Assembly: GCA_003612585.1 (NCBI GenBank)
Contig: RAZH01000001.1
Location: forward strand, 124,001 to 188,000
Direction: 5' to 3'
Origin: a bacterium 1XD42-54
Lineage (GTDB): Bacteria; Bacillota; Clostridia; Lachnospirales; Lachnospiraceae
Length of the DNA stretch: 64,000 nucleotides
Shown: positions 50,220 through 64,000 of the stretch, in pieces
How the letters are laid out: each line of letters opens with the position of its first letter
How positions within the stretch are numbered: position 1 is the first letter of the stretch
Program-made: the position numbers and the translations under genes
The notes under the pieces: model-generated
What the model was told of the DNA's origin: nothing
Databases searched by the model: none
Seen by the model: only the letters and a program-made list of their open reading frames with translations

Positions 50220-51188
50220 TCACATAAGTACACAGGTTTGTCCCAAAAACAGTCTGGCTGCGCCACAAATTCCGGCGTCATTGCCAAGCCTTGCCAGGCG
50301 AAATTCTGTATTCTCACACGGTAAAAATGCATATTGGCGATAATATTTCTGAATCGGTTCCAGCAGAACACTTCCGGCCTTCGACACGCCGCCTCCAAGC
50401 ACAATCACCTCCGGATCTACCACACAGGCACACATGGCAAGCGCCTTGCCAAGATAAAGCCCAAACTCCTCCGTAACCTGAAGCCCCAGCGCTTCGCCTT
50501 TTCCGGCTGCCTCAAAAATACGCTTCGCCGATAGCGCAGCGTCGTTGCGTCCGGCTGCCTGCTGTGCATCTGCATCCTCTTGCAAAATACGCCGCGCAAT
50601 CCCCACAATGCCGCGTGCAGACGATAGCTGTTCCAGACAGCCGTATTTTCCACAGCTGCACGGTTCCTGTATCCGATCATCCACATGAATATGTCCAATC
50701 TCGCCTGCTGCCTGATGCGCTCCGGTAAGAATTTTGCCATCCACAATAATCCCGCAACCAACTCCGGTACCCAGTGTCACGAGCATCATGCTCCGGCAGC
50801 CCTTTCCGCTTCCCATTGAGTATTCCCCGAGTGCGGCCAGATTTGCATCATTTTCAGCTTTTACCGGAAGTCCTGTCTTCTCCTTCACATGCTGTACGAG
50901 AGGCACATCTCTCCACCCAAGATTTTCCGCCAGCACAACATTGCCGCATTCGTCCACCTGGCCGGGCACACCGATTCCAATTCCGCCCACTGCCCGTGTA
51001 TTCAAACGCCGTTCGTTTATTTTTCCCTTTACACCATTAACAAGATCCGGTAAAATAAGCGCTCCGTTTTCTTCAAGCCTTGTCTGTATTTCCCACTTTT
51101 CCAGAAGGCTCCCCTGTGAGTCAAAAAGCCCGAATTTTATAAAACTTCCGCCAATATCAATTCCAAAATAATATTTTTCCATTCCCAT
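50220..51188 (-). CDS. ROK-family sugar kinase (glucokinase type)
   Basis: This 322-residue kinase has the ATP site FGIDIGGSFIKFGL, the glucose site EIGHIHVD and the zinc motif CSCGKYGCLEQLSS, diagnostic of ROK kinases. It phosphorylates glucose or a close analogue. No N-terminal HTH is present, so it is an enzyme and not a repressor. It is the last gene of the 50.2-56.9 kb sugar operon, 18 nt after the TIM-barrel isomerase gene. Confidence 0.92.
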   Translation of the reverse strand: MGMEKYYFGIDIGGSFIKFGLFDSQGSLLEKWEIQTRLEENGALILPDLVNGVKGKINERRLNTRAVGGIGIGVPGQVDECGNVVLAENLGWRDVPLVQHVKEKTGLPVKAENDANLAALGEYSMGSGKGCRSMMLVTLGTGVGCGIIVDGKILTGAHQAAGEIGHIHVDDRIQEPCSCGKYGCLEQLSSARGIVGIARRILQEDADAQQAAGRNDAALSAKRIFEAAGKGEALGLQVTEEFGLYLGKALAMCACVVDPEVIVLGGGVSKAGSVLLEPIQKYYRQYAFLPCENTEFRLARLGNDAGICGAARLFLGQTCVLM

Positions 51189-51206
51189 CCGTCTGCCAGT
51201 TTCCCT

Positions 51207-52121
51207 CTACATCAGGGTATGCAGATAACGGTATGCCACCTCAATTCCATGTTTGATATCTTCCGGTGTCCCTTCAAACGACCGGTCCTCACATTCCAGA
51301 CAGGCAGAACCGCTGTAACCAATTTCGTTTAATTTTGTAATCAGTTTCGGGAAATCGACGTCGCCATGGCCGGGCAGTTTCGGCGTATGCCACAGCCCCG
51401 GATACGTGAATCGCCCGTATTCCTCCACCTTATCCTGATCAATCTGAAGATCCTTAAAGTGAATGTGAAACATACGCTCCGCAAACGCTTCCACCGGTTT
51501 CCACACGTTCATCCCCAGCAGAACCATATGAGACGGATCAAAACAAAGTCCGATGTTTGGCCCCATTGCAAACATCCGACGCCAGATCTCCGGCGTCGTT
51601 GCCAGATTGTTGCCGCCCGGCCATTCGTCTCCCGTAAAATACATCGGGCAGTTTTCAATCGCAATGCGTACCCCCCGTTCCGCAGCATAGCTCAGAATCG
51701 GCGGCCAGATTTCCTCCATCATTTCCAAATTTTCCTCTACCGTCTTCCTCTTATCCCGTCCGATAAAGGTCGTCACAAGCCTTACATCCATCAATTTTGC
51801 CGCATCAATTACCTTATATAAATGCTTCCGTGATTTCTCTGCCACTTCCGGCTCGTCTGACATCGGATTTGGAAAATAGGCCAACGCTGCTATTTTAATT
51901 CCGCGCCTCTTTGCATAGGCAAGATATGCCTCTGCCTTCTCTTCTGTCAACCCATCTACATCTATATGCGTCACACCGGCATATCTTCTGGTTGCCGGTT
52001 CCTGCGGCCAACAGCAAACCTCCAGGCTTTCAAACCCCGTCTCCGCAGCATAATCCACGACCTGCTCGAAGGAATATCCTTCCAGAATCGCCGTGTGCAA
52101 ACCAAGTTTCATCATCGTCAT
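51207..52121 (-). CDS. Xylose-isomerase-like TIM-barrel isomerase/epimerase/lyase
   Basis: This 304-residue TIM barrel has the four metal ligands of the family: Glu156 (IAIENCPM), Asp195 (CFDPSHM), His221 (HIHFKD) and Glu in LECED near 276. The stretch ENCPMYFTGDEWPGG is shared with the subgroup often found next to Gfo/Idh/MocA oxidoreductases, some of which cleave 3-keto-sugars. It follows the oxidoreductase gene by 22 nt. The reaction is not known; isomerase, epimerase or beta-eliminating lyase are all possible. Confidence 0.8.
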   Translation of the reverse strand: MTMMKLGLHTAILEGYSFEQVVDYAAETGFESLEVCCWPQEPATRRYAGVTHIDVDGLTEEKAEAYLAYAKRRGIKIAALAYFPNPMSDEPEVAEKSRKHLYKVIDAAKLMDVRLVTTFIGRDKRKTVEENLEMMEEIWPPILSYAAERGVRIAIENCPMYFTGDEWPGGNNLATTPEIWRRMFAMGPNIGLCFDPSHMVLLGMNVWKPVEAFAERMFHIHFKDLQIDQDKVEEYGRFTYPGLWHTPKLPGHGDVDFPKLITKLNEIGYSGSACLECEDRSFEGTPEDIKHGIEVAYRYLHTLM

Positions 52122-52143
52122 TTCCCCCTCCCTTATACTTTTC

Positions 52144-53283
52144 CTATATTTTCACCCACGCACGCTTCTGCGCGGACTCATATACCTTTTCACAAAGCAC
52201 CATTTCCCGCAGACCGTCCTCAAAATTTGCAAAATCCCTCTGCGCGGTATCTCCTTCCAACACCGCCTGATAAAACTTTTCAAACTGTGCTTTGAATGTA
52301 TCCGGGAATCCTTCCACATGGCCGCCCGGATATCCAATCACAGCCTTTGCCTTATCTGAAAGCACAGACGGGTCCTTCGGCGCCTTCTGGTTGAACATTT
52401 CCCGCCTTCCGACCCAAAGCTCCTGGGAATCCTCACTATCCCAATGAAGCGCGCATTTGCTGCCGCTGATCGAGATAATCTGCTGATTCTTTCGCCCCGC
52501 CGTCACCTGACTCACGTTCATGTTTCCGATCGCCCCGTTTTCAAACCGGAACAAAATGCTGCACCAGTCCTCCGTTTTCACCGGCGTGTCCGCATAATCC
52601 TCCGGCCGAAGCGCCATTCCAGAAAATGTCTCGACGGATTTCAGCGGTTTTTTCCTCGTTTTATGCAGCAGACCAAATTCTGCAAGCACCTCGACTGCCC
52701 GCAGTCCTGTAATGTCTTCCACCATATCAATCCAGTGCGTTCCGATATCCGAAAATGCCCTTGTATTCCCCGAAATCTCCGGGTCTAACCGCCAGCTCCA
52801 GTCACTCTCCAGAAACAGCCAGTCCTGAAGATACCCGCCTGTCACTGCAAATACCTCTCCGATCTCTCCACTTTGCACCATTGCTTTCATCTGCTGTACC
52901 TGCGGATTCATCCGAAGCGAGTGATTCACCCCTGTCACAATCTGATGCTCTTTTGCATACGCACACAGCGTTTTTGCTTCCTCCACAGTCATGGTAAAAG
53001 GCTTTTCCAGCATCACGCTCAGCCCCTTCTCCATCGCGTACATTGCCATCTCAAAATGTAGATTATTCGGCGTACAGATATGTACCGCATCCAATTCCTC
53101 CCGGTCAATCATATCCCTGTAGTCATCATATCCCTTGGGTACAAACTGTTCCCCCGCCTTCTTCTCTCCTCCGCTCTTATGCGCCACTGCCACAACATCC
53201 ACATATCCCAGACGGCGCAGCGCCTCAATATGCGCTGCCCCGATAAATCCAATCCCAATCACACCCACTCTCATCCTTCTCAT
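52144..53283 (-). CDS. Gfo/Idh/MocA-family NAD(P)-dependent oxidoreductase
   Basis: This 379-residue enzyme has an N-terminal Rossmann fold (GVIGIGFIGAAH, residues 7-18), the catalytic Lys in EKPF (93-96) and the Asp-His block DIGTHWID (179-186). GYLQDWLFLESDWSWRL (150-166) shapes the sugar pocket. It oxidises a hydroxyl of a sugar or glycoside, often at C3. It is coupled to the TIM-barrel gene and preceded by the ABC transporter. No signal peptide is present. Confidence 0.9.
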   Translation of the reverse strand: MRRMRVGVIGIGFIGAAHIEALRRLGYVDVVAVAHKSGGEKKAGEQFVPKGYDDYRDMIDREELDAVHICTPNNLHFEMAMYAMEKGLSVMLEKPFTMTVEEAKTLCAYAKEHQIVTGVNHSLRMNPQVQQMKAMVQSGEIGEVFAVTGGYLQDWLFLESDWSWRLDPEISGNTRAFSDIGTHWIDMVEDITGLRAVEVLAEFGLLHKTRKKPLKSVETFSGMALRPEDYADTPVKTEDWCSILFRFENGAIGNMNVSQVTAGRKNQQIISISGSKCALHWDSEDSQELWVGRREMFNQKAPKDPSVLSDKAKAVIGYPGGHVEGFPDTFKAQFEKFYQAVLEGDTAQRDFANFEDGLREMVLCEKVYESAQKRAWVKI

Positions 53284-53337
53284 ACGTTCTCCTTTCTACT
53301 GAAATGCTCTTTCGGGCGTCCTCTCAAAAACATTACA

Positions 53338-54294
53338 TTATTTACGCAACATCTTAAAGCGCAGCGCACTGATCCCAAGCGACAGAATGATAATCACACC
53401 TGACGCAATCTCCTGCAAATACGGATTTACCCCCAGAATATTCAGTACATTCGAAATCAGTCCCAAAAGCAGCACGCCAAAAAACGTGCCAACTGCACTT
53501 CCCTGTCCGCCGCTGATCGGCGCTCCTCCGATCACGACCGCCCCGATTGCCGTCATTTCCAGTCCGGCTCCGGAAGACGGAAGCGCGGAACCGACGCGGG
53601 AGAGCAAAAGCACGGACGCAATACCGACAAAAAACCCGTTCAGCATAAAGAAAAGCAGTTTATTCTCTGTAATCCTCACGCCGGAAAGAAACGCCGATTT
53701 TTCATTGGAACCAATTGCATAAATTCTTCTTCCGATCTGTGTGTAGTTTAAAATAATAAATACAACAACAAAGCCCAGCAAACTAATCACAAAAGACAGT
53801 GGAATCACTCCTCCGATCTTTGTAAACGCGAGCATATCAAACTTCCCATAGACCGTCTGGATGACACCTTTAGTCGCAAACAATCCGATTCCTTTGTAAA
53901 CACTCGTCGTCGCCAGAGTTATGATAAAAGACGGAGCCTTAAAGAGAATGGCAAGCGCTCCGTTCAAAAGCCCGCACAGCATACAAACTGCAACCGCCGC
54001 CACAGAGGCCACGAATCCGTTCACCCCCTGATTGATCAGAAGCGCGTTCGTGCAGCACGCCAGTCCGATAATCGCCCCCACGGAAATATCAAAATTACCG
54101 GATATAATCAGAATAGTCGCTCCTGCTGCCACCAGTCCTGATACCGCAATCTGCTCAAAAATATTCATGATATTGTTGATGGCCAGAAATTTCGGGTTTG
54201 CAATCGCCGTAAACACAGAAATAAGGATCGTAATCAGCAAAAGCATCAGCCACTGTGATTGAAACAGTCTCTGTTTCAGATTTTTATTCTTCAT
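53338..54294 (-). CDS. Sugar ABC transporter permease (RbsC type)
   Basis: This 318-residue permease has about eight helices. VSGLVAAGATILIISGNFDI and SVGAIIGLA are typical of the BPD/RbsC family, and the C-terminal GGAPISGGQGSAVGTFFG is the conserved loop that contacts the ATPase. It is the membrane component for the binding protein at 55880 and the ATPase at 54323. Confidence 0.93.
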   Translation of the reverse strand: MKNKNLKQRLFQSQWLMLLLITILISVFTAIANPKFLAINNIMNIFEQIAVSGLVAAGATILIISGNFDISVGAIIGLACCTNALLINQGVNGFVASVAAVAVCMLCGLLNGALAILFKAPSFIITLATTSVYKGIGLFATKGVIQTVYGKFDMLAFTKIGGVIPLSFVISLLGFVVVFIILNYTQIGRRIYAIGSNEKSAFLSGVRITENKLLFFMLNGFFVGIASVLLLSRVGSALPSSGAGLEMTAIGAVVIGGAPISGGQGSAVGTFFGVLLLGLISNVLNILGVNPYLQEIASGVIIILSLGISALRFKMLRK

Positions 54295-54322
54295 TCTTTT
54301 TCCCTTTATCCTTAAAAACTTC

Positions 54323-55801
54323 TTATTTTATGCCCATGTACCATTTCAGCAGCTCATCTTCCTGCGCCTCATCGGCAGGAATCACTGCGCTGAGTGCACC
54401 ATCTTTCATAACAGCAATGCGGTCACTCATGGAAATCAGCTCCGGCATCGTAGACGAAACCATAATTACTATTTTTTTCCGTTTTACAAGTTCCTCTATC
54501 AGCCGGTAAATCTCTTCTCTGGCGCCAACGTCCACGCCCTTTGACGGCTCATCAAAAATATAAATTTCACCGTCCATGGCCAGCCACCGTGAAATTACAA
54601 CCTTCTGCTGATTGCCTCCGCTTAACTTGCCTGCATCATGTTCCCGGTTGAACACTTTGATCGAGAGCTGCTCAATGCTGTGATCTACCAGTTCTTTTTC
54701 TTTTGCCAGGTTCAGAAAAAACCTGCTCTCGTTTTTCGCAATCGAAATATTTTCCTTTACTGAGCGGTCCAGAAAAAGTGCTTCCCCTTTCCGGTCCTCT
54801 GACACAAAACAGATGCCCTTTTTTATCGCATCTTTGGGGTCCTTCGGGGTAATTTCTTTCCCATTTAGGAACATCTGGCCGCTCTCCTTTGGATCTGCAC
54901 CAAACAGCATGCGGACCAGCTCCGTCCGGCCTGCTCCGACCAACCCTCCAAGTCCCAGCACTTCGCCGTGTGAAACCGTAAAGCTGACATTTTTTACAAG
55001 ATTTCCCCTTGTATACCCGCGTATCTCCAATGCCTGATCTCCGGTTGAAAAATTTCCCTTCCTATAATAATTAGAAGCATCTCTTCCCACCATTTCACGA
55101 ATCAAGGTTTCCTGTGTGACCTCCCCGATCTGTCTTTCACTGACCGAGTAACCGTCTTTTAACACATTGACGCGGTCCCCCACACGGAAAATCTCGTCCA
55201 TATAGTGTGAAATATAAATAATCCCGATCCCGTCATGCTTCAGCCGGTCAATCAATTCCATGAGCGCTTTCGTCTCATCCTCACCGAGCGATGCAGTCGG
55301 TTCATCCATAATCAGGATTTTCGCTTTTTTGTGAAGCGCTTTCGCTATCTGAAGATTCTGTTTCTGCCCAGGCGACAGCGTTTCCACCAGCACATCCGGA
55401 CGGATCGTCATATTCAGCGCACGCAGAATCTCACCTGCTTTTTCTTCCTGTTTCCTGCGATCAATAAAAATTCCGTTTTTTCTAATTTCGGCTCCCTGAA
55501 AAATGTTGTCCGCAACGCTCAAAGTATCGACCAAATCCACATCCTGATAAATCGTTGCAACTCCAAGCTCCATAGCCTGGGAAGGCTGAAGCGAGGACCA
55601 GGTACGGCCAAACAGTGTGATACTTCCACTGTCCGGCTTTTCGGCGCCGGACAAAATTTTAATCAGGGTGGACTTGCCTGCCCCGTTTTCTCCGACGAGG
55701 CAGACCGTCTCTCCCGCATGAAGGGTGAGATTTACATTGTGAAGAACCTGAATCCCCGCAAAACTCTTATTGATATCTTTCAGCTCAAGTATCTGTTCCA
55801 C
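54323..55801 (-). CDS. Sugar ABC transporter ATP-binding protein (RbsA type)
   Basis: This 492-residue double ATPase has an N-terminal module with GENGAGKST, TLSPGQKQNLQIAKAL and ILIMDEPTAS. The C-terminal module has a degenerate A site (LGGLVGAGRTELVR) and LSGGNQQKVVISRWL. The best start is a GTG at 55801: AGGAG lies 7 nt before it, whereas the longer TTG start has none. It powers the RbsC-type permease. Confidence 0.92.
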   Translation of the reverse strand: MEQILELKDINKSFAGIQVLHNVNLTLHAGETVCLVGENGAGKSTLIKILSGAEKPDSGSITLFGRTWSSLQPSQAMELGVATIYQDVDLVDTLSVADNIFQGAEIRKNGIFIDRRKQEEKAGEILRALNMTIRPDVLVETLSPGQKQNLQIAKALHKKAKILIMDEPTASLGEDETKALMELIDRLKHDGIGIIYISHYMDEIFRVGDRVNVLKDGYSVSERQIGEVTQETLIREMVGRDASNYYRKGNFSTGDQALEIRGYTRGNLVKNVSFTVSHGEVLGLGGLVGAGRTELVRMLFGADPKESGQMFLNGKEITPKDPKDAIKKGICFVSEDRKGEALFLDRSVKENISIAKNESRFFLNLAKEKELVDHSIEQLSIKVFNREHDAGKLSGGNQQKVVISRWLAMDGEIYIFDEPSKGVDVGAREEIYRLIEELVKRKKIVIMVSSTMPELISMSDRIAVMKDGALSAVIPADEAQEDELLKWYMGIK

Positions 55802-55879
55802 ACATACTCTCCTTCCGTTTTTCAAATATTACGTTTCCACTGAAATCTCTTTTCAAGCTTATTCCGGTTCTCACTCCCT

Positions 55880-56899
55880 TTATTCAGCGAGAAGCTCCGG
55901 GAAATACTCCTGTGTCAGCTCCCAGAAAATATCATTTACTTCCCACGGAACCACCTTGCTCTCATCGTCGATATTTTCCTGATCTACCGGCATGATCGGA
56001 AGCATAATGGACTGCTCGATTTCTGTACTCTTCCCTTCCACATAGTTCGCCAGCGCCAGATAAGAAACAAGTCCTTCCCAACCCGGTGAAGAAGAAATAG
56101 TATAAGAAAGCGAACCTTCTTTTACGAGCGGAAGCCCTGCCGGAGAACCGTTCTGTGCTATCACCGTATAGTCATCCAGTAGATTACTTGCCTTCAGCAT
56201 CTGAATAACTGCCGCTGCCATATCTTCATCCATCACAAAGATAATGGAAAATTCTTTTCCGGAGGAAATCAGGTCCTGCGCCACATTCACGGCCTCGCTC
56301 GGATTGTATTTTCCTTCCCGAAGCTCTACCAGCTCGTTCTGTCCAAGTTCCTCTGCTCTGGCCGTCATCGCCTCATTCACTCTCTGACACGGAACGGATT
56401 CAAAATTTCCCGTGATAATCACAAACTTCTCGCCCGGATGATTTTCAGCCATCCAGTCCGCATAATTGATGCCCATCTCCGTCCAGTCGAAATCAATTGC
56501 TGCCACTATATCAGCCTCTGCGTCGAGCGCCGTTCCGCACGTATCGGTCGCTACCACCGGAATACCGGCCTGCGCACACTTCTCTGCCGCAATCTTCGCG
56601 CCTGTCTCATTAAACGGGAAAATACAAAGTCCGTCCACACCCTGATTGATCAGAGAATCAATATTGGAAATCTCCTTGTCCGCATCATAATCTGAGTTCA
56701 GAACAACAACCTTATTCCCGTCTTTTTCCGCGCCCATTGTAAATCCGTCAACATCTCTCTGGTACCAGGTGTCCGGACCCGGAGTAATATATCCGTATAC
56801 TTTTCCGCCTTCTCCTGCCATCACCCCCATCGGCATTGCAGTAAGCATCGTTCCCACCATAACAACAGCTGTCATTCTCTTCATCTTTTTACCGTTCAT
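55880..56899 (-). CDS. Sugar-binding protein of ribose-type ABC transporter
   Basis: This 339-residue periplasmic-binding-protein-1 fold protein has a signal peptide (MKRMTAVVMVGTMLTAM, then MAGEGG) without lipobox cysteine. It has NSDYDADKEISNIDSLINQG, GLCIFPFNETG and ATDTCGTAL, typical of ribose/galactose-type binders. The start at 56899 has AAGGAGG upstream. It is the first gene of the operon; an operator-like palindrome lies about 85 nt upstream. Confidence 0.92.
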   Translation of the reverse strand: MNGKKMKRMTAVVMVGTMLTAMPMGVMAGEGGKVYGYITPGPDTWYQRDVDGFTMGAEKDGNKVVVLNSDYDADKEISNIDSLINQGVDGLCIFPFNETGAKIAAEKCAQAGIPVVATDTCGTALDAEADIVAAIDFDWTEMGINYADWMAENHPGEKFVIITGNFESVPCQRVNEAMTARAEELGQNELVELREGKYNPSEAVNVAQDLISSGKEFSIIFVMDEDMAAAVIQMLKASNLLDDYTVIAQNGSPAGLPLVKEGSLSYTISSSPGWEGLVSYLALANYVEGKSTEIEQSIMLPIMPVDQENIDDESKVVPWEVNDIFWELTQEYFPELLAE

Positions 56900-56983
56900 T
56901 TTGTATCCTCCTTCTCCATGTTTGTTCTTCTTCCGTTCTGCCGAAGAGCGTAAATGTATGGTTTTATTCTTTACACTCTTTCC

Positions 56984-56995
56984 TGTAAATTTACA
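56984..56995. promoter_or_regulatory. Palindrome TGTAAATTTACA upstream of the sugar-binding gene
   Basis: A perfect 12-bp palindrome sits 85 nt upstream of the binding-protein start in the 355-nt gap between the operon and the divergent LacI-type gene. An identical copy precedes the isomerase gene at 59338. This is the likely operator of the LacI protein. Confidence 0.75.
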
Positions 56996-57136
56996 ATTAT
57001 AGGCTATCATGTTCTTGTCATTTTTTCAATATTTTTTTCAAAATCCACGCTATTTTCATGGTTTTTCATGATTTTATTATCATTTCTTTGTATATTATGC
57101 CATTTTTCTTTTCATTTTTACATTTGTATTTACATT

Positions 57137-57159
57137 TTTACATTTTAAGTTTATTATAT
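57137..57159 (+). promoter_or_regulatory. Half-operator upstream of the LacI gene
   Basis: This stretch begins TTTACATTTTAAG and agrees in 20 of 23 positions with the flank of the operator at 59344-59366. Additional TTTACA half-sites lie just before it (57128-57142). It suggests autoregulation of the LacI-type gene. Confidence 0.5.
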
Positions 57160-57254
57160 TATTTAATCAGAAGCTGCAAAATAGCAGCTTCCTACGTGAT
57201 CAGACCCAATTTCTTCACGTATATAAAAGAAAAAGTTTCATGGGAGGATTTTTA

Positions 57255-58286
57255 ATGAAAAGGAAACGCATTACGATAGAAGAACTGGCAGAAAAAGCGA
57301 ATGTATCCATCGCAACAGTTTCCAGAGTGCTCAATAATAAAGGAAATGTCAAAAAAGAAACAAGAAATCATGTCATTGAAATCATGCAGAAATACGATTT
57401 TCATCCACAGAATCCCCATGCGCTCTCCAATCCGGAAAGCAATCTTCTTCTGACCTGCGTCCCGGATTTCTGTAACCCATTTTACAGCCCTGTCATTGAC
57501 GGAATCCAGAAAGCCGCGCACGAAAATAATTATGACGTCATCTTCCTTCAGTCAAGAGATTATTACACTGAGATTTCTGATTTTGCCAATATTCTTAAAG
57601 AAAAATCAATTGCAGGCATTCTGATCCTCTCTTCAGTTCCAAATACAGAGCTGATACGTGAACTGAACTTCAAGTGTCCGGTTATTATGTGCTGCGAATA
57701 TCCAGAGGATTATGACGTCTCCTATGTAACCATCAATGATGTGGCATCAACCGTCACAGCGATCAATTATCTGGTACTCACGGGATGCAAAAAAATCGGC
57801 CTGATGAACAGTTCCCTGAAATTCAAATACGCGAGACACCGGGAAAAAGGGTTCACACAGGCGCTTGAGGAGCACGGCCTTGAGATCAACCCGGAATGGG
57901 TGGCACACATCTCCTCCATCAACTACAACCTTGCATATTCCGAAGCCCTGCATATCCTGCAGCTTCCCGATCGTCCCCAGGCCATGTTTGCCTGCTCGGA
58001 TGTCTACGGAATCGCCATTATCAATGCAGCTAAAAATCTTGGTCTTCGCGTACCGGAGGATTTATCTGTGATAGCCTTTGACAACACGGAAATATCCATC
58101 ATGTCAGACCCTCCGCTCACCACAGTCGATCAGCCGAAAAAACAGATCGGCTATCAGTCCTGTGAAATGCTGATTGATCAGATCAAATCCCCCGGCTCTG
58201 CAAACAAACAGGTGGTTCTGAGCACGCAACTGATCATCCGCGGCTCCACGCTTCTGCCAACCCAGAGTCCGGCACTTCACGTTTAA
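57255..58286 (+). CDS. LacI-family transcriptional regulator
   Basis: This 343-residue repressor has the LacI HTH and hinge (ITIEELAEKANVSIATVSRV, LNNKGNVKKET) and a sugar-binding domain (VPDFCNPFYSPVIDGIQ ... VIAFDNTEISIMSDPPLTTV). The start at 57255 has GGGAGG upstream. It is divergent from the ABC/oxidoreductase operon and convergent with the isomerase gene; both carry the same palindrome, so it should control both. Confidence 0.95.
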   Translation: MKRKRITIEELAEKANVSIATVSRVLNNKGNVKKETRNHVIEIMQKYDFHPQNPHALSNPESNLLLTCVPDFCNPFYSPVIDGIQKAAHENNYDVIFLQSRDYYTEISDFANILKEKSIAGILILSSVPNTELIRELNFKCPVIMCCEYPEDYDVSYVTINDVASTVTAINYLVLTGCKKIGLMNSSLKFKYARHREKGFTQALEEHGLEINPEWVAHISSINYNLAYSEALHILQLPDRPQAMFACSDVYGIAIINAAKNLGLRVPEDLSVIAFDNTEISIMSDPPLTTVDQPKKQIGYQSCEMLIDQIKSPGSANKQVVLSTQLIIRGSTLLPTQSPALHV

Positions 58287-58321
58287 GAAAAAACTCCGCT
58301 TTATAAAAAACAAAGAAAAAC

Positions 58322-58365
58322 GGCAGCCATATGAAGATACTACTGTTACACTTCATATAGCTGCC
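58322..58365. terminator. Bidirectional terminator between LacI and isomerase genes
   Basis: GGCAGCCATATGAAG (58322-58336) and CTTCATATAGCTGCC (58351-58365) pair with one mismatch. ATTTTGTT follows on plus; GTTTTTCTTTG follows on minus. It ends both converging genes. Confidence 0.9.
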
Positions 58366-58421
58366 ATTTTGTTACGCTTCTGTTCTGGTTTCGTATCTCA
58401 GTCAGAACGTTACTATCACCT

Positions 58422-59309
58422 TCAGACTCCCAATTCTCTGTGCAGGTAGTCCATCGTCTGTTTCATTCTGGCATATACCTGGTCATCGTCATCCTCAATC
58501 GCTGTGCACACCTCGAGATACTGCGTGATCTCATCCAGCCCCGCGTCCTTGGTTGCTTTTTTAATCAGCTCAGGCGTCACAATTCCCTCTTTTGTAAAAT
58601 CCCAATGCCTGTCCCATTCACCGTCTGTCTGCTGAAGATGGATCGCCCCAATATATGGGCCGCAAGTACGGAACCAAAGCGCAATATCCGCCTCATCCCC
58701 AAGCAGAGGCCGGTAAAGCGCATGTCCCCAGTCAATCAGAAGCCGGACCGGAATCTCCGTCCCTTTCAGATCTTCCATCATTTGTACAGACACAGACGGG
58801 CTGTGCGGAATCTCCGTAAACAGCGGTGTGGCTTCGATATGTATTTCCTTAAGTCCCCGTTCCTTTCCATGCGCTGCAATCATCCTGATATTTTTCAGCA
58901 TATCCTGATACAGGAACTCTCTGCGCTGCGGATTCCTCGCATCATCATAGGATAATGCACCGATCGCGGTTCCCATTACTTCTGCACCAAGCTCAGCTGT
59001 CATATCAACCGCCCGTTTAAAAAACTGCAGCGCAATCCCACGCTGCAATTCATCCGGCGCAAGCAGCTGCGGATAAGAATAGGCCGCAAGCCCGCTGAAC
59101 GTAGAATCAATCACCACACCTGCCCGCTCAAACGCCTCCCGAAAACGTCGTGCATACGCACCCCTTTGCTCCGCCGGCCACCACGGGTCAATCAGATCCC
59201 ACGTAACCTGTACATGGTCCGTTGCAAAATCATGTTTCACCAGCGCTGCCAGACGCTCCGGCTCTACCCACCGCTTCACCGCAAAAGACAAATTCAATCC
59301 CAGTTTCAT
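58422..59309 (-). CDS. TIM-barrel sugar isomerase/epimerase (second paralogue)
   Basis: This 295-residue barrel has putative metal ligands Glu159 (HIEATP), Asp193 with His196 (LIDWGH) and His224 (IHLQQTDG). The motif IHLQQTDGEWDRHWDFT and the N-terminal segment TFSGLAAYSYPQLL recur in isomerases acting on short ketose phosphates such as erythrulose phosphates, but the substrate here is open. It lies alone behind its own operator, yet shares that operator with the 50-57 kb operon. Confidence 0.8.
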   Translation of the reverse strand: MKLGLNLSFAVKRWVEPERLAALVKHDFATDHVQVTWDLIDPWWPAEQRGAYARRFREAFERAGVVIDSTFSGLAAYSYPQLLAPDELQRGIALQFFKRAVDMTAELGAEVMGTAIGALSYDDARNPQRREFLYQDMLKNIRMIAAHGKERGLKEIHIEATPLFTEIPHSPSVSVQMMEDLKGTEIPVRLLIDWGHALYRPLLGDEADIALWFRTCGPYIGAIHLQQTDGEWDRHWDFTKEGIVTPELIKKATKDAGLDEITQYLEVCTAIEDDDDQVYARMKQTMDYLHRELGV

Positions 59310-59337
59310 ACCGCATCCCCCTTTTTTACATTTTTTC

Positions 59338-59349
59338 TGTAAATTTACA
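59338..59349. promoter_or_regulatory. Palindrome TGTAAATTTACA upstream of the isomerase gene
   Basis: The same perfect 12-bp palindrome as at 56984, here 29 nt upstream of the isomerase start. The flank continues with TTTTAAACTTATCATAT, similar to the LacI upstream site. Confidence 0.75.
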
Positions 59350-59513: not shown

Positions 59514-60023
59514 TTATTCTTTCTTCTGCGTCAAGATAATACCAACGATTGCACCAATAAGAATAATCGGTGCTACTCTGACAAGCAACCATTCAAATGA
59601 GTGAAATACCACTCCGAGAACGGCGGTTTCAGGATCACTATAATCCCAAGCCAAGTAAGGACTTTCTACTTCCAATAAAATTGAAAAAATTGCTACCACA
59701 ACTACGCACAATGAGATCAAAAGCCAATGTACAATTCTTTTTCTTGTGGTTTTTCTCTGTGCAAGTTGCAAGTTTATCACCTCCAGTTTTGCGGAAATCG
59801 CCTTTAAGTCGTCAATTTCTGACTCAATGACGTTTTCTCCAAGCAATGTACTCACGGATGTTTCAAACACTTCTGATAGGGAAACCAACATATCAGAATC
59901 CGGAACCGACAATCCTTGCTCCCATTTAGAAATTGTTTGTCGCACCACGTTCAGCTTGACAGCAAGCTCTTGTTGCGAAAGTCCTTTTGATTTTCTGATC
60001 GCTTTAATATTTTTGCTGAGCAT
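59514..60023 (-). CDS. XRE-family regulator with C-terminal membrane helices
   Basis: This 169-residue protein has an N-terminal HTH (residues 1-60: SKNIKAIRKSKGLSQQELAV ... RQTISKWEQGLSVPD), a helical linker (about 68-92) and two membrane helices (about 97-117 and 145-163). It is a membrane-tethered or dimerising XRE regulator of the small Firmicute type. The start at 60023 has AAGGAGG upstream. It lies next to a sugar transport operon but the operon terminator separates them, so a link is unproven. Confidence 0.88.
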   Translation of the reverse strand: MLSKNIKAIRKSKGLSQQELAVKLNVVRQTISKWEQGLSVPDSDMLVSLSEVFETSVSTLLGENVIESEIDDLKAISAKLEVINLQLAQRKTTRKRIVHWLLISLCVVVVAIFSILLEVESPYLAWDYSDPETAVLGVVFHSFEWLLVRVAPIILIGAIVGIILTQKKE

Positions 60024-60288: not shown

Positions 60289-61311
60289 CTATTTTTTATT
60301 TTTCTCTTTCGCCGCAGCAAAGACACTCTGAAGTACAATGAAGAAGCAGAGCATTGCTGCGATTGTGATTCGTGTCCACCAGGAAGACAGTGTGCCCTGG
60401 AAGGTGATAAATGCTTCGATCGTACCTTTAATCAATACGCCGAACAGACTGCCGATTACATTTCCGACTCCACCAGTCAGAAGGGTTCCTCCAATGACAG
60501 AGGAAGCAATAGCATCCATCTCAAGTCCTTTTGCCTGCTCCACAAAACCAGAACACGTATTCAGACAGAACAGAAAACCGCCCAGACTTGCCAGGAAGCC
60601 TTCCAGCATATAAGCTTTGAGCTTTGTGCGCTTGACATTCAGTCCCATCATCAATGCGGACTGTTCGTTTCCTCCGATTGCATAAATGCTTCGTCCAAAT
60701 TTTGTGTATTTCAGGACAAGAAAAACTGCAATCAGAATGAAAATGGCAATGATTACACTCGGATATATATACGGTTTGATCAGCATTCCCTTTTTATTTA
60801 TGTATCCGCCAAACGGCAGATAAATTTTGCACTGCGCCCAGGAAAGAAACATCTCATTTTTAATACTGATCATCTCTTTGCTGATCACTGCCGTCATACC
60901 TCTCGCGAAAAACATGCCTGCAAGAGTCACAATAAATGGCTGAATCTTCAAGTATGCAACAAGCCATCCCTGTACAAATCCAAATACCAGACCAATCGCC
61001 AGCACAAAAACGGTCGACCAGATTGCGCCCCAACCGGCCATCTCCATGGTCCAAGCCAGAATCATACATACCATAGCTACGACAGAACCTACTGAAATAT
61101 CAATACCGCCTGTAATCATGACGATCGTCATGCCGACTGCAATGACAATCAGACCTGCATTTGAAATAAAAAGATTCAGGAAATTCTGTGTTTTCGCAAA
61201 ACCCTGTGTCTTAAAAAGAATACAGCCTACGACATACATCACAAGGAACAATGCAATGGTAATCACGAGAAGGAAAGAATTACCATCCAGTTTACGTCTT
61301 TCTTTTTTCAT
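60289..61311 (-). CDS. Sugar ABC transporter permease (YjfF type)
   Basis: This 340-residue permease has about nine helices. MTIVMITGGIDISVGSVVAM and GGVGNVIGSLFGVL are typical of the BPD-type sugar permeases. The start overlaps the upstream permease by 4 nt (ATGA). It is the second permease of a two-permease importer like the galactofuranose system YtfQRT-YjfF. Confidence 0.92.
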   Translation of the reverse strand: MKKERRKLDGNSFLLVITIALFLVMYVVGCILFKTQGFAKTQNFLNLFISNAGLIVIAVGMTIVMITGGIDISVGSVVAMVCMILAWTMEMAGWGAIWSTVFVLAIGLVFGFVQGWLVAYLKIQPFIVTLAGMFFARGMTAVISKEMISIKNEMFLSWAQCKIYLPFGGYINKKGMLIKPYIYPSVIIAIFILIAVFLVLKYTKFGRSIYAIGGNEQSALMMGLNVKRTKLKAYMLEGFLASLGGFLFCLNTCSGFVEQAKGLEMDAIASSVIGGTLLTGGVGNVIGSLFGVLIKGTIEAFITFQGTLSSWWTRITIAAMLCFFIVLQSVFAAAKEKNKK

Positions 61312-62360
61312 GATACCGCTCCTTTCCCTGCCCCTGCAGAAAATTTTGCTTTCAGACGACGCATCAGCTTTCCAAGCTCCGGTGACTGCAAAGATACAAT
61401 AATCACAACCACAATCGCCTTGTATACCGGAATCTGATCAGAACTTACGGAACCTGCATACAGAGTTGTCGTCAGCGTCTGAATCGTATATGCGCCAATC
61501 ACAGAACCAAGCAGAGAAAACTTACCGCCTGCCAGAGAATTGCCGCCAAGAGCAACTGCCAGAATCGCATCCAGCTCCAGGTTCAGTCCGATATTGTTTG
61601 CATCCGCAGAATAAATACGGGATGAGTTGATCAGTCCTGCAATACTTGCGCAGAAACCGCTGAACGCATACACGAGAAAGATAATCATCGTAGATTTTAG
61701 TCCCACAAGTCTTGCCGCTTTGGAGTTAATTCCGACCGCCTCTATGTACATTCCCATTGCCGTTTTTTTCAGCAGCAACATGGTCAGCACCACCATCAGA
61801 ACAGTAACAAATATTGAGGTCGGAACCGGAACACCCGGAATGCTGGAACCAAGCATTTTATAGCTGTCCACACGCACGTAGGTGATCTGTCCATTCGTCA
61901 GAAGCTGTGCGATTCCACGGCCTGCCGTGAACAGAATCAGCGTAGCAACCATTGGCTGAATCTTCAGCTTTGCTACCAGGAAACCATTGAAGCAACCGCA
62001 GAGAATACCAACCAGGATTGCCAGCAGTGCGCCCAGCAACGGATTACGAATATACTCATTTACACTCTGCTGTCCGCCTGCGGTAAACGCACAGGCAACG
62101 GCCGCTACAACGGCCATAACAGCACCTACAGAAATATCGGTACCAGCCGAAGCAGATACGACAAGCGTCATGCCAACTGCAAGAATCACAACCTCACTGC
62201 CTCGGTTTATCACATCAATAATACGTCCATACAATACGCCGTTTTGTATACCAATTTTAAAGAAATCAGGACTGGCAATCACTGCCGCGATCAGCATAAC
62301 AGCCAGACAGAAAAGCGGCATAAACAACCTTTTGGATGTCAGCTTTTTGATATTTTCCAT
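61308..62360 (-). CDS. Sugar ABC transporter permease (YtfT type)
   Basis: This 350-residue permease has about nine helices with VVILAVGMTLVVSASAGTDI and SVGAVMAVVAAVAC, close to YtfT. It starts one base inside the ATPase stop (TGATG). It pairs with the YjfF-like permease to form a heterodimeric channel. Confidence 0.92.
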   Translation of the reverse strand: MENIKKLTSKRLFMPLFCLAVMLIAAVIASPDFFKIGIQNGVLYGRIIDVINRGSEVVILAVGMTLVVSASAGTDISVGAVMAVVAAVACAFTAGGQQSVNEYIRNPLLGALLAILVGILCGCFNGFLVAKLKIQPMVATLILFTAGRGIAQLLTNGQITYVRVDSYKMLGSSIPGVPVPTSIFVTVLMVVLTMLLLKKTAMGMYIEAVGINSKAARLVGLKSTMIIFLVYAFSGFCASIAGLINSSRIYSADANNIGLNLELDAILAVALGGNSLAGGKFSLLGSVIGAYTIQTLTTTLYAGSVSSDQIPVYKAIVVVIIVSLQSPELGKLMRRLKAKFSAGAGKGAVS

Positions 62361-63874
62361 CAGTTTCCTCCTCCTGCGATTGCTTTCATGATTGAGTTCT
62401 GATGAAGCTCAGATTCTTCCAGCTCGCCAACCTTCGCACCGTCGCGAAGTACGGCCATTCTGCTGCAGGTACGAATCATTTCCTCAATCTCAGATGAAAT
62501 GAACATAACTGCCATGCCCTGCTCGGCAAGCTGCAACACAAGCTTCTGAATCTCTGTCTTTGTTCCGATATCAATACCTCTGGTCGGCTCATCCAGAATC
62601 AGGAAATCCGGATTGGTCAAAAGCCATCTGCCAAGGATTACTTTTTGCTGGTTTCCACCGGAAAGCTGTCGAATCGGCGTCTCCCGGTCTGCCGTTTTAA
62701 TCTGCAAAACGTCGATGTATTTATCGGTAAATTCTTCCTGTTCTTTGCGGCTCAACAAGTGAAACAGTCCTCGTTTTGCCTGAAGCGCGATGATAATGTT
62801 CTCACGCACCGACAGATCAGAAATAATCCCCTCTTCCTTTCGGTTCTCAGGCAGATAAGCCATACCTGCCATCATGGCATCGAGCGGAGCACCTACAAGA
62901 AGTTTCTTTCCTTTTACAAACAGTTCTCCCATATCCGGCTTATCCGCGCCATAGATACTTCTGGCAAGCTCTGAACGGCCAGAGCCAAGCAATCCGGTTA
63001 AACCAATCACTTCACCTTTATGGATATCCAAATCGAACGGACGAATCGTCCCCTTATGACCAAGCTTCTTTGCGCTGATCGCCACCTCGCCTTTTATGCG
63101 GTTCTGCATGCCTTCTTTTTTAATGGCAGCAAGATCATCAAAGTCTTTTCCCATCATTTTGGCAACCAGCTGTACTCTCGGCAACTCCTCTACCTTGAAT
63201 TCTCCGACCAGCGCGCCGTTCCGAAGCACCGTAATGCGGTCACAGACTGCATATACCTGCTCCAGGAAATGTGTTACAAAAATAATACCTACGCCCTGAT
63301 CACGCAGCCTGCGCATCAGACCGAATAATTTTTCCACCTCTCCGTCATCCAGAGATGAAGTCGGCTCATCCAAAATGAGCACCTTCGCCGACATATCTAC
63401 CGCACGCGCAATTGCCAGCATCTGCTGGATTGCAATCGAATAATTTTCTACTGCTACTGAAACATCAATATGTATATCCAGTCCCTCGAGTAACTCTCTG
63501 GACTTCTTTTTCATAGTTCTCCAGTCAATCATACCCGCCCGCTTCGGTTCACGCCCGATAAACAGGTTTTCTGCCACTGAAAGATTCGGACAGAGGTTTA
63601 CCTCCTGGTAAACGGTACTGATCCCGTTCGCCTGCGCCTCCTGTGGGGAACGGTTGATAATCGCCGTATCAGCTCCCTCAATCTGGATTTCGCCGGATTC
63701 AAATTCTTCCACACCGGTGAGCACTTTAATCAAAGTAGACTTCCCGGCTCCATTTTCTCCCATAAGCGCATGGATTTCTCCTTTGCGCAGAGTAAAATCG
63801 ACATTCTGCAGTGCTTTTACTCCCGGAAAATTCTTACTGATGTCTCGCATGGTAAGTACAACATCCTGCTCCAT
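62360..63874 (-). CDS. Sugar ABC transporter ATP-binding protein (YtfR type)
   Basis: This 504-residue double ATPase has GENGAGKST, an ATP signature VENYSIAIQQMLAIARAV, VLILDEPTSSLD and the C-terminal LSGGNQQKVILGRWL with FLILDEPTRGID. The ATG at 63874 is preceded by AGAGGTGCTTT and gives the normal N-terminus, so the longer extension is rejected. The binding-protein gene expected upstream is beyond the right edge; 63875-64000 contains only a GC-rich segment with GGAGGC repeats. Confidence 0.93.
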   Translation of the reverse strand: MEQDVVLTMRDISKNFPGVKALQNVDFTLRKGEIHALMGENGAGKSTLIKVLTGVEEFESGEIQIEGADTAIINRSPQEAQANGISTVYQEVNLCPNLSVAENLFIGREPKRAGMIDWRTMKKKSRELLEGLDIHIDVSVAVENYSIAIQQMLAIARAVDMSAKVLILDEPTSSLDDGEVEKLFGLMRRLRDQGVGIIFVTHFLEQVYAVCDRITVLRNGALVGEFKVEELPRVQLVAKMMGKDFDDLAAIKKEGMQNRIKGEVAISAKKLGHKGTIRPFDLDIHKGEVIGLTGLLGSGRSELARSIYGADKPDMGELFVKGKKLLVGAPLDAMMAGMAYLPENRKEEGIISDLSVRENIIIALQAKRGLFHLLSRKEQEEFTDKYIDVLQIKTADRETPIRQLSGGNQQKVILGRWLLTNPDFLILDEPTRGIDIGTKTEIQKLVLQLAEQGMAVMFISSEIEEMIRTCSRMAVLRDGAKVGELEESELHQNSIMKAIAGGGN

Positions 63875-64000
63875 AAAGCACCTCTCTTTCCATATTTCTG
63901 TGAAAATCTGGCCATTCGCACAGCAGATTTTTTTGTTTATTTTTGATGGTACAAAAGGTATGGAGGCGAAAGCCTTACGGCCTCCGGCCTCCACACCCGA

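Follow-up and report, generated by a model that had tools for sequence, protein, structure and literature searches.

Which sugar chemistry is served by a regulon that joins a Gfo/Idh/MocA oxidoreductase (hereafter Gfo) and a xylose-isomerase-like TIM barrel (TIM1) to a ribose-type importer, a ROK-family kinase, a LacI-family regulator and a second TIM barrel (TIM2)? The question is raised by positions 50220-59349 of a 64,000-nucleotide stretch (here called the window) of contig RAZH01000001.1 from the Lachnospiraceae bacterium 1XD42-54. An initial annotation had proposed that a small glycoside or anhydro-sugar is imported, oxidised and then cleaved there. In the present analysis 'hydrate, reduce, phosphorylate' was found to fit better than 'import, oxidise, cleave': the genes may form a LacI-controlled import regulon with the back half of a non-hydrolytic 3-keto-glucoside pathway, a reading to which we give about an even chance. 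The case is built on the gene content, two exact operator copies, the family placements and the repeated association of TIM1 with LgdA/LgdB1 and with subunits of C-glycoside deglycosidase (CGD), from which we infer the reactions, the substrate and the role of TIM2. The pathway itself is already known; the TIM1 family in the place of the hydratase and the isolated back half appear to be new, as judged from the open-access literature.

In the proposed route the importer would take up a small hexose derivative; TIM1, as a metal-dependent barrel, would hydrate a 2-hydroxy-3-keto-glucal-type intermediate to a 3-keto-hexose, Gfo would reduce C3 with NAD(P)H to give glucose, and the ROK kinase would form glucose 6-phosphate. 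These reactions would correspond to the last two steps (3 and 4) of the known four-step route, followed by a kinase reaction; TIM2 might act as an auxiliary aldose/ketose isomerase on a different portion of the substrate. The ketoglucal could be external, leaked by other gut bacteria, or could stem from an imported O-glycoside that is oxidised at C3 by the same Gfo (with 3-keto-glucose as acceptor) and then undergoes spontaneous elimination. Oxidation of glycosides by a DgpA-type Gfo, for which 3-oxo-glucose serves as acceptor, has been reported, as has the non-enzymatic breakdown of 3-oxo-O-glucosides (PMC11239390); given such reversal and spontaneous breakdown, Gfo and TIM1 would be a complete minimal O-glucosidase.

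Placement of the oxidoreductase, the first barrel and the kinase

Gfo (52144-53283, minus strand; PF01408, PF22725 and PF02894) was matched best among the NCBIfam models by levoglucosan dehydrogenase NF052479, with 165 bits against a cut-off of 650; proteins above this cut-off score 713-758 bits. Its identity as LgdA was ruled out by this score and by the tree. A search of 299 genomes of the phylum yielded one LgdA above the cut-off (genome G515; 758 bits, and 660 bits to the LGDH entry 6A3F), and in the lgd locus of that genome (L103) a second Gfo, 392 residues long and bearing E95 and H185, precedes an LgdB2-type barrel. E95 and H185 are the numbers of the catalytic residues of LG01 LgdC (PMC10066097), and the second Gfo was named LgdC because of its position, its length and these two residues, not by comparison with a published LgdC sequence. 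The window Gfo is 43.5% identical to this LgdC versus 28% to the LgdA of the same locus, it carries E93-K94-P95 and H183, and the gene order Gfo-TIM1 is that of LgdC-LgdB2 in L103. In a quick tree (SH-aLRT support, without bootstrap) it was joined to LgdC and the second Gfos of lgd loci with a support of 98, and ten LgdA rows stood apart (100). By these comparisons Gfo is of the LgdC type (3-keto-glucose reductase / glucose 3-dehydrogenase side), a type that would suit the final reduction and not dedicated oxidation at C3, the role first assigned to it.

TIM1 (51207-52121, minus strand; PF01261, 145 bits) had been considered as the beta-eliminase, and was placed by profile and tree on the hydratase side instead. 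HHalign comparison of profiles gave 4.5e-40 against LgdB2 (27% over 282 columns), 3.8e-36 against a sister group and 6.9e-32 against LgdB3/AtHYD; matches to the eliminases were weaker (LgdB1 2e-13, CGD alpha 5e-13), as were those to IolE (4e-14), FrlC (8e-11), UlaE, TIM2 and YcjR (2e-5). The low rank of the four E. coli references (YcjR, FrlC, Hyi and UlaE) counts less because each of them is a single sequence. The barrel tree, in which 19 of the 36 TIM1 rows were used, joined TIM1, LgdB2 and LgdB3 (96), with TIM1 as a clade of its own (99) outside the LgdB2 and LgdB3 clades, and set LgdB1 with IolE (96) and CGD alpha (99) apart. Neither TIM1 nor TIM2 was nearest to the eliminases LgdB1 and CGD alpha by profile and tree. 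TIM1 is, on this sequence evidence, a member of the hydratase-side clan (LgdB2 / AtHYD).

LgdB3 of the plasmid-borne lgd locus L150 of Agrobacterium tumefaciens matches 8RO4 over its full length (609 bits), and 8RO4 is titled 2-hydroxy-3-keto-glucal hydratase (AtHYD). There is preliminary evidence that AtHYD hydrates ketoglucal and that its Gfo reduces 3-keto-glucose (PMC10628242). Kinship of the L150 LgdB3 with 8RO4 would answer the question about LgdB3 that is left open in PMC10066097. Barrels that fit LgdB3 by position and phylum were seen in three lgd loci (L150:12023-13075, L145:11847-12905 and L151:12076-13137). When an AlphaFold model of TIM1 (pLDDT 92.6) was searched with Foldseek, 8ro4 chains ranked 5 and 7. 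The likely metal site of TIM1, as read from invariant alignment columns, consists of E156 (ENCP), D195 (DPSH), H221 (HIHFKD) and E276/E278 (LECED).

The last gene of the operon (50220-51188, minus strand; PF00480) encodes a kinase that is, as a predicted activity, of the ROK glucokinase type, with 292 bits to TIGR00744 (cut-off 260); the expectation of a kinase suited to glucose is borne out by this score.

TIM1 in lgd and C-glycoside loci

A Gfo adjoins TIM1 in 21 of 26 TIM1 loci in named genomes, and is of LgdC type in 6 of the 21. Across 250 genomes of the family, 40 TIM1 places (some of them partial) were found in 32 genomes, with a listed Gfo match within 2.5 kb at 8 places and a CGD beta subunit within 5 kb at 11. 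LgdA above the cut-off was found in 3 of 397 Lachnospiraceae genomes (G077, G179 and G633); in all three, TIM1 lies directly beside LgdA on the same strand at a distance of 11-17 bp, LgdB1 starts at most 0.5 kb away on the opposite strand, and no LgdB2 or LgdB3 (AtHYD-type) match better than TIM1 itself was present in the fetched stretches. In a further genome (G638), an LgdA-like gene reaches 529 bits, short of the cut-off; LgdB1 accompanies it, and a TIM1 gene is located about 7 kb off. In the nine loci examined with LgdA above the cut-off, the place of the hydratase is held by TIM1 in three, by LgdB3 in three (L145, L150 and L151), by LgdB2 in one (L103) and by another barrel in L144; nothing was recognised there in L146. 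A second LgdA-like gene was observed at the far end of each of the three Lachnospiraceae lgd loci (L093:13955-15130, L193:13819-15000 and L206:9414-10589), with 608-623 bits, just below the cut-off of 650.

The TIM1 family also recurs in C-glycoside operons (L009, L085, L090, L091 and L147), three of which (L009, L091 and L147) include a ROK gene; in Enterococcus raffinosus (L147) the order is Gfo, CGD alpha, CGD beta (annotated DUF6379), Gfo, TIM1, ROK. TIM1 was also considered as a candidate DfgD of the flavonoid O-glucosidase DfgCD. A related dfg-like cluster (L190), whose alpha subunit scores 518 bits to EuCGD, holds a different barrel and no TIM1; the comparison covered this cluster rather than the DfgC and DfgD sequences themselves. 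Near the TIM1/CGD operons, AraC-type regulators fused to a GH39 domain were noticed (L009:7144-9654, L090:11568-14087 and L091:15455-17857), possibly glycosidase-derived sugar sensors; in L147 and L148 the upstream region encodes helix-turn-helix proteins about 810-820 residues long, and transport genes of ABC-2 / ABC_transp_aux / DUF4340 type lie near TIM1 in two related loci (L005:7840-9987 and L082:817-4390).

The known pathways in these contexts share the product 2-hydroxy-3-keto-glucal, which needs hydration (PMC7676230). Among 265 LgdA neighbourhoods, 126 organisms were reported with LgdB1 and with neither LgdB2 nor LgdB3 (PMC10066097), so that the hydration step lacks an assigned enzyme in them. 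TIM1 offers a specific candidate for some of these cases, and likewise for gut C-glycoside operons. The initial proposal of a 3-keto sugar route thus stands as far as the setting of the Gfo-TIM1 pair is concerned (LgdA/LgdB1 loci and CGD subunits) and is not supported for the roles of oxidation and cleavage given to the genes. A more far-reaching proposal, which we hold only tentatively and consider more probably wrong than right, is that TIM1 adds a third family to the 2-hydroxy-3-keto-glucal hydratases, one with E-N-C and no His, which supplies the hydration step in Lachnospiraceae lgd and gut C-glycoside loci, and that the window carries a stand-alone regulon for scavenging 3-keto sugars or ketoglucal that other gut bacteria nearby have leaked. 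If true, this would be a cross-feeding niche on an unusual metabolite. The window also suggests that hydratase and reductase can occur as a pair in the absence of the oxidase-eliminase half. In the open-access literature, to which the search was confined (subscription papers lay outside its scope), no earlier description of TIM1 as a family in the hydratase place or of an isolated back half was found among the matches listed.

Counter-evidence and rival explanations

Several observations weigh against hydration by TIM1 followed by reduction and phosphorylation. In every aligned TIM1 (alignments of 33 rows, 32 distinct, and of 36 rows, 35 distinct), Cys158 stands where LgdB2, 8RO4 and CGD alpha have the His of E-x-H; the motif reads E156-N-C158-P, with no catalytic His two residues after the strand-5 metal ligand. 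This His is called catalytic for elimination (PMC10628242), and with Cys in its place TIM1 may use other residues or carry out another reaction. Foldseek puts the unassigned 2ZDS and the isomerase Art22 above 8RO4, with many epimerases close behind, so the fold alone is not decisive. We know of no TIM1 member with an assayed activity. Of the 21 Gfo genes that adjoin TIM1, 15 fall outside the LgdC type, a ketohexokinase gene lies between Gfo and TIM1 in L084, which suggests a ketose product in that locus, and the same neighbours would be expected if TIM1 were another accessory enzyme. The front half of the pathway was not recognised in the bacterium's own genome (G000): LgdA above the cut-off is absent, CGD beta (PF19906), present in 33 of 397 family genomes, gave 0 matches, and none of the 8 PF01261 places beyond TIM1 exceeded 28 bits with the profiles of LgdB1, CGD alpha, LgdB2, LgdB3, TIM1 or a barrel of about 270 residues described below. 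Over the PF01261 and PF01408 places of this genome, the window pair scored 521 bits (barrel profile) and 611 bits (LgdC profile), and the best other places 28 and 112. With no recognised maker of ketoglucal in the genome (lyases of AtOGE or Bacteroides type were not searched for), a spontaneous or external source would be needed. A C-glycoside substrate was ruled out, as the genome is without CGD beta. The ketohexokinase of L084 (9604-10728; PF25270), a prokaryotic one, is flanked by a Gfo of LgdC type and by TIM1 and differs from the ROK glucokinase of the window.

The full oxidise-then-cleave route, in which an imported glycoside or anhydro-sugar would be oxidised at C3 by Gfo and would then lose its aglycone through elimination by one of the two barrels, is judged unlikely. 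A fuller set is indeed found in kin: a barrel that is about 270 residues long, has E-x-H and could be an eliminase is present in relatives (L003, L004, L005 and L007; 54-65% alike for L003, L004 and L005), and L003 and L004 also have a second Gfo beside TIM1. The reversibility of DgpA-type Gfo with 3-oxo-glucose, cited above, and the partial bifunctionality of LgdB2 (PMC7676230) point the same way. The window, however, is without the 270-residue E-x-H barrel, TIM1 and TIM2 both fall outside the LgdB1 and CGD alpha groups, E-N-C (TIM1) and E-A-T (TIM2, by motif position only) stand in place of the eliminase His, and Gfo is of LgdC type. Remodelling of a rare sugar, in which Gfo and TIM1 would oxidise, epimerise and reduce a hexose with the glycosidic bond left intact, as annotated for YcjQ-YcjR-YcjS on gulosides, seems slightly less improbable. 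It would accommodate a TIM1 without the catalytic His, the ketohexokinase of L084 and the pairing of TIM1 with a YcjR-like barrel (28-29%) in L006 (the same genome stretch as L092), L010 and L011; TIM1, however, compares poorly with YcjR (2e-5) and closely matches the hydratases (4.5e-40), a point weakened by the single YcjR sequence, and it occurs in LgdA/LgdB1 and CGD loci. Inositol was rejected as substrate, since no IolE was found in the own genome at E 1e-70, and catabolism of inositol or rhizopine by an IolG-like Gfo and an IolE-like barrel is thought very improbable: IolE (57 bits) and IolG (104 bits) appear among the sub-threshold NCBIfam matches, far below their cut-offs of 290 and 355, and IolE groups with LgdB1, not with TIM1.

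TIM2 (58422-59309, minus strand; PF01261, 63 bits) bears on a further alternative. It matches 3QXB with 274 bits over its length and, remotely, 4K3Z (68 bits), which we take to be EryC. EryC has been named tetrulose-4-phosphate racemase (PMC5992420). TIM2 was found in 7 of 250 family genomes, the own genome included. At six of seven places outside the own genome it is followed by genes for an HxlB-like SIS isomerase and a dihydroxyacetone kinase and preceded by an ATP-binding cassette (ABC) importer; at the seventh (L076) a GlpK-like kinase, an alcohol dehydrogenase and a transketolase half follow. TIM1 is present in none of these seven stretches. A gene for component B of glycine/sarcosine/betaine reductase was observed near a TIM2/dihydroxyacetone kinase operon (L077:12421-13746). 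TIM2 as eliminase received no support from profile, motif position or context; its E-A-T, at the place of the eliminase His, was read by motif position, unaligned. By its matches it belongs to a tetrulose/pentose isomerase-like group, and together with its neighbours these make an aldose/ketose isomerase more likely than an eliminase. The initial annotation had named clustering of both barrels with pentose or tetrulose isomerases as evidence against its scheme; TIM2 lies on that side, TIM1 groups with the hydratases. If TIM2 were the lead enzyme of a pathway for a tetrose or a branched pentose (tetritol / apiose-like), and Gfo and TIM1 played side roles, these neighbours and the remote EryC match would be accounted for. 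This reading is nevertheless considered quite improbable: neither a tetrulose kinase nor a transketolase is encoded by the eight genes, their kinase belongs to the glucokinase type, and Gfo and TIM1 point to hexoses. An assignment of TIM2 as apiose isomerase, weighed against the literature rather than against a reference protein, was not adopted. Within the preferred hydrate-reduce-phosphorylate reading, TIM2 is probably co-regulated with the operon, which would point either to an imported compound with a second moiety other than glucose or to the handling of a sugar that is not glucose.

Operator, remaining genes and known systems

TIM2 had been said to share an operator with the importer operon, and this was supported by two exact copies of the palindrome TGTAAATTTACA at promoter positions, a predicted site: one at 56984-56995, about 85 bp before the start of the binding-protein gene, and one at 59338-59349, 29 bp before the start of TIM2. 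TGTAAATTTACA occurs at 5 places in the 3.7 Mb genome, and the reversed control pattern at 0. A shared operator is credible because two of these five places lie within 2.4 kb of each other, both at promoter positions. With up to 2 mismatches, 5 matches were counted in the window, which is chance level (12 of 100 shuffles reach 5), so it is the two exact copies, and where they lie, that carry the case for the operator. A further TTTACA lies 13-14 bp from each copy. The other three genomic places (L140, L141 and L142) are 47, 145 and 112 bp from the nearest open reading frame. The closest relative (L002) keeps both copies (at 1956 and 4425), which adds little because that region is similar overall. 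The genes look co-regulated; scans for promoters and terminators gave results at about shuffle level and were not used.

All eight gene calls of the initial annotation hold, with correct types, by the open reading frame list and NCBIfam and Pfam profiles, and no aldolase or glycoside hydrolase is present among the eight, as had been stated. The minus-strand operon runs from the sugar-binding protein (55880-56899; PF13407) through the ABC ATPase (54323-55825; two ABC domains, start at TTG or later, all AraG/AlsA/RbsA models below cut-off) and one permease of ribose type (53338-54294; PRK09512, 177 bits, below the cut-off of 398) to Gfo, TIM1 and ROK. The reading frame of the binding protein is open to 57010; the start at 56899 was preferred by reading, as GGAGG precedes its ATG. 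The LacI-family regulator (57255-58286, plus strand; PF00356/PF13377; CytR model 236 bits, below the cut-off of 436) faces away from the importer operon; on its far side lies TIM2, a gene of its own on the minus strand. A second sugar importer adjoins the set (window 60289-64000), with a YjfF-like permease and a further permease and ATPase typed by reading, and an XRE-type regulator lies beside it at 59514.

The same eight genes are found in L002, a contig of a metagenome-assembled genome (G745) of one other species of the genus, with identities of 96% (TIM2), 97% (LacI), 84% (binding protein), 97% (ATPase), 98% (permease), 94% (Gfo), 93% (TIM1) and 68% (ROK). Among 47 genomes of the genus, in which TIM1 alone was searched, 6 had a match at E 1e-60 or better; the close copy (93%) is confined to G745 and the genome studied here. 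The regulon thus has the look of an accessory trait with a patchy distribution.

Set beside known systems, the window shares parts with several. With YcjQ-YcjR-YcjS of E. coli it has in common a Gfo and a TIM barrel, there annotated for 3-keto sugars, but TIM1 and Gfo are only remotely alike, and the window has one Gfo and no phosphorylase. EryC systems are linked to it through the matches of TIM2 to 3QXB and 4K3Z, but no erythritol genes lie beside TIM2. In gut C-glycoside deglycosidation (DgpABC, DfgABCDE) the TIM1 family recurs in the operons, and the genome-wide absence of CGD beta sets the present bacterium apart. The AtOGE-AtHYD-Gfo operon of Agrobacterium tumefaciens (PMC10628242; 8RO4) likewise combines a hydratase-like barrel with a Gfo reductase, and the Gfo beside the AtHYD-type barrel in L150 falls on the LgdC side of the tree; the TIM1 clade is separate from AtHYD, and no eliminase was recognised in the window. 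From the levoglucosan pathway LgdA-LgdB1-LgdB2-LgdC of Bacillus smithii (PMC7676230) the window differs in having neither LgdA nor LgdB1, in a TIM1 that is not LgdB2, and in the added ROK kinase and TIM2; common to both are the LacI regulator, the ribose-type importer and an LgdC-type Gfo followed by a hydratase-side barrel, in the order seen in L103.

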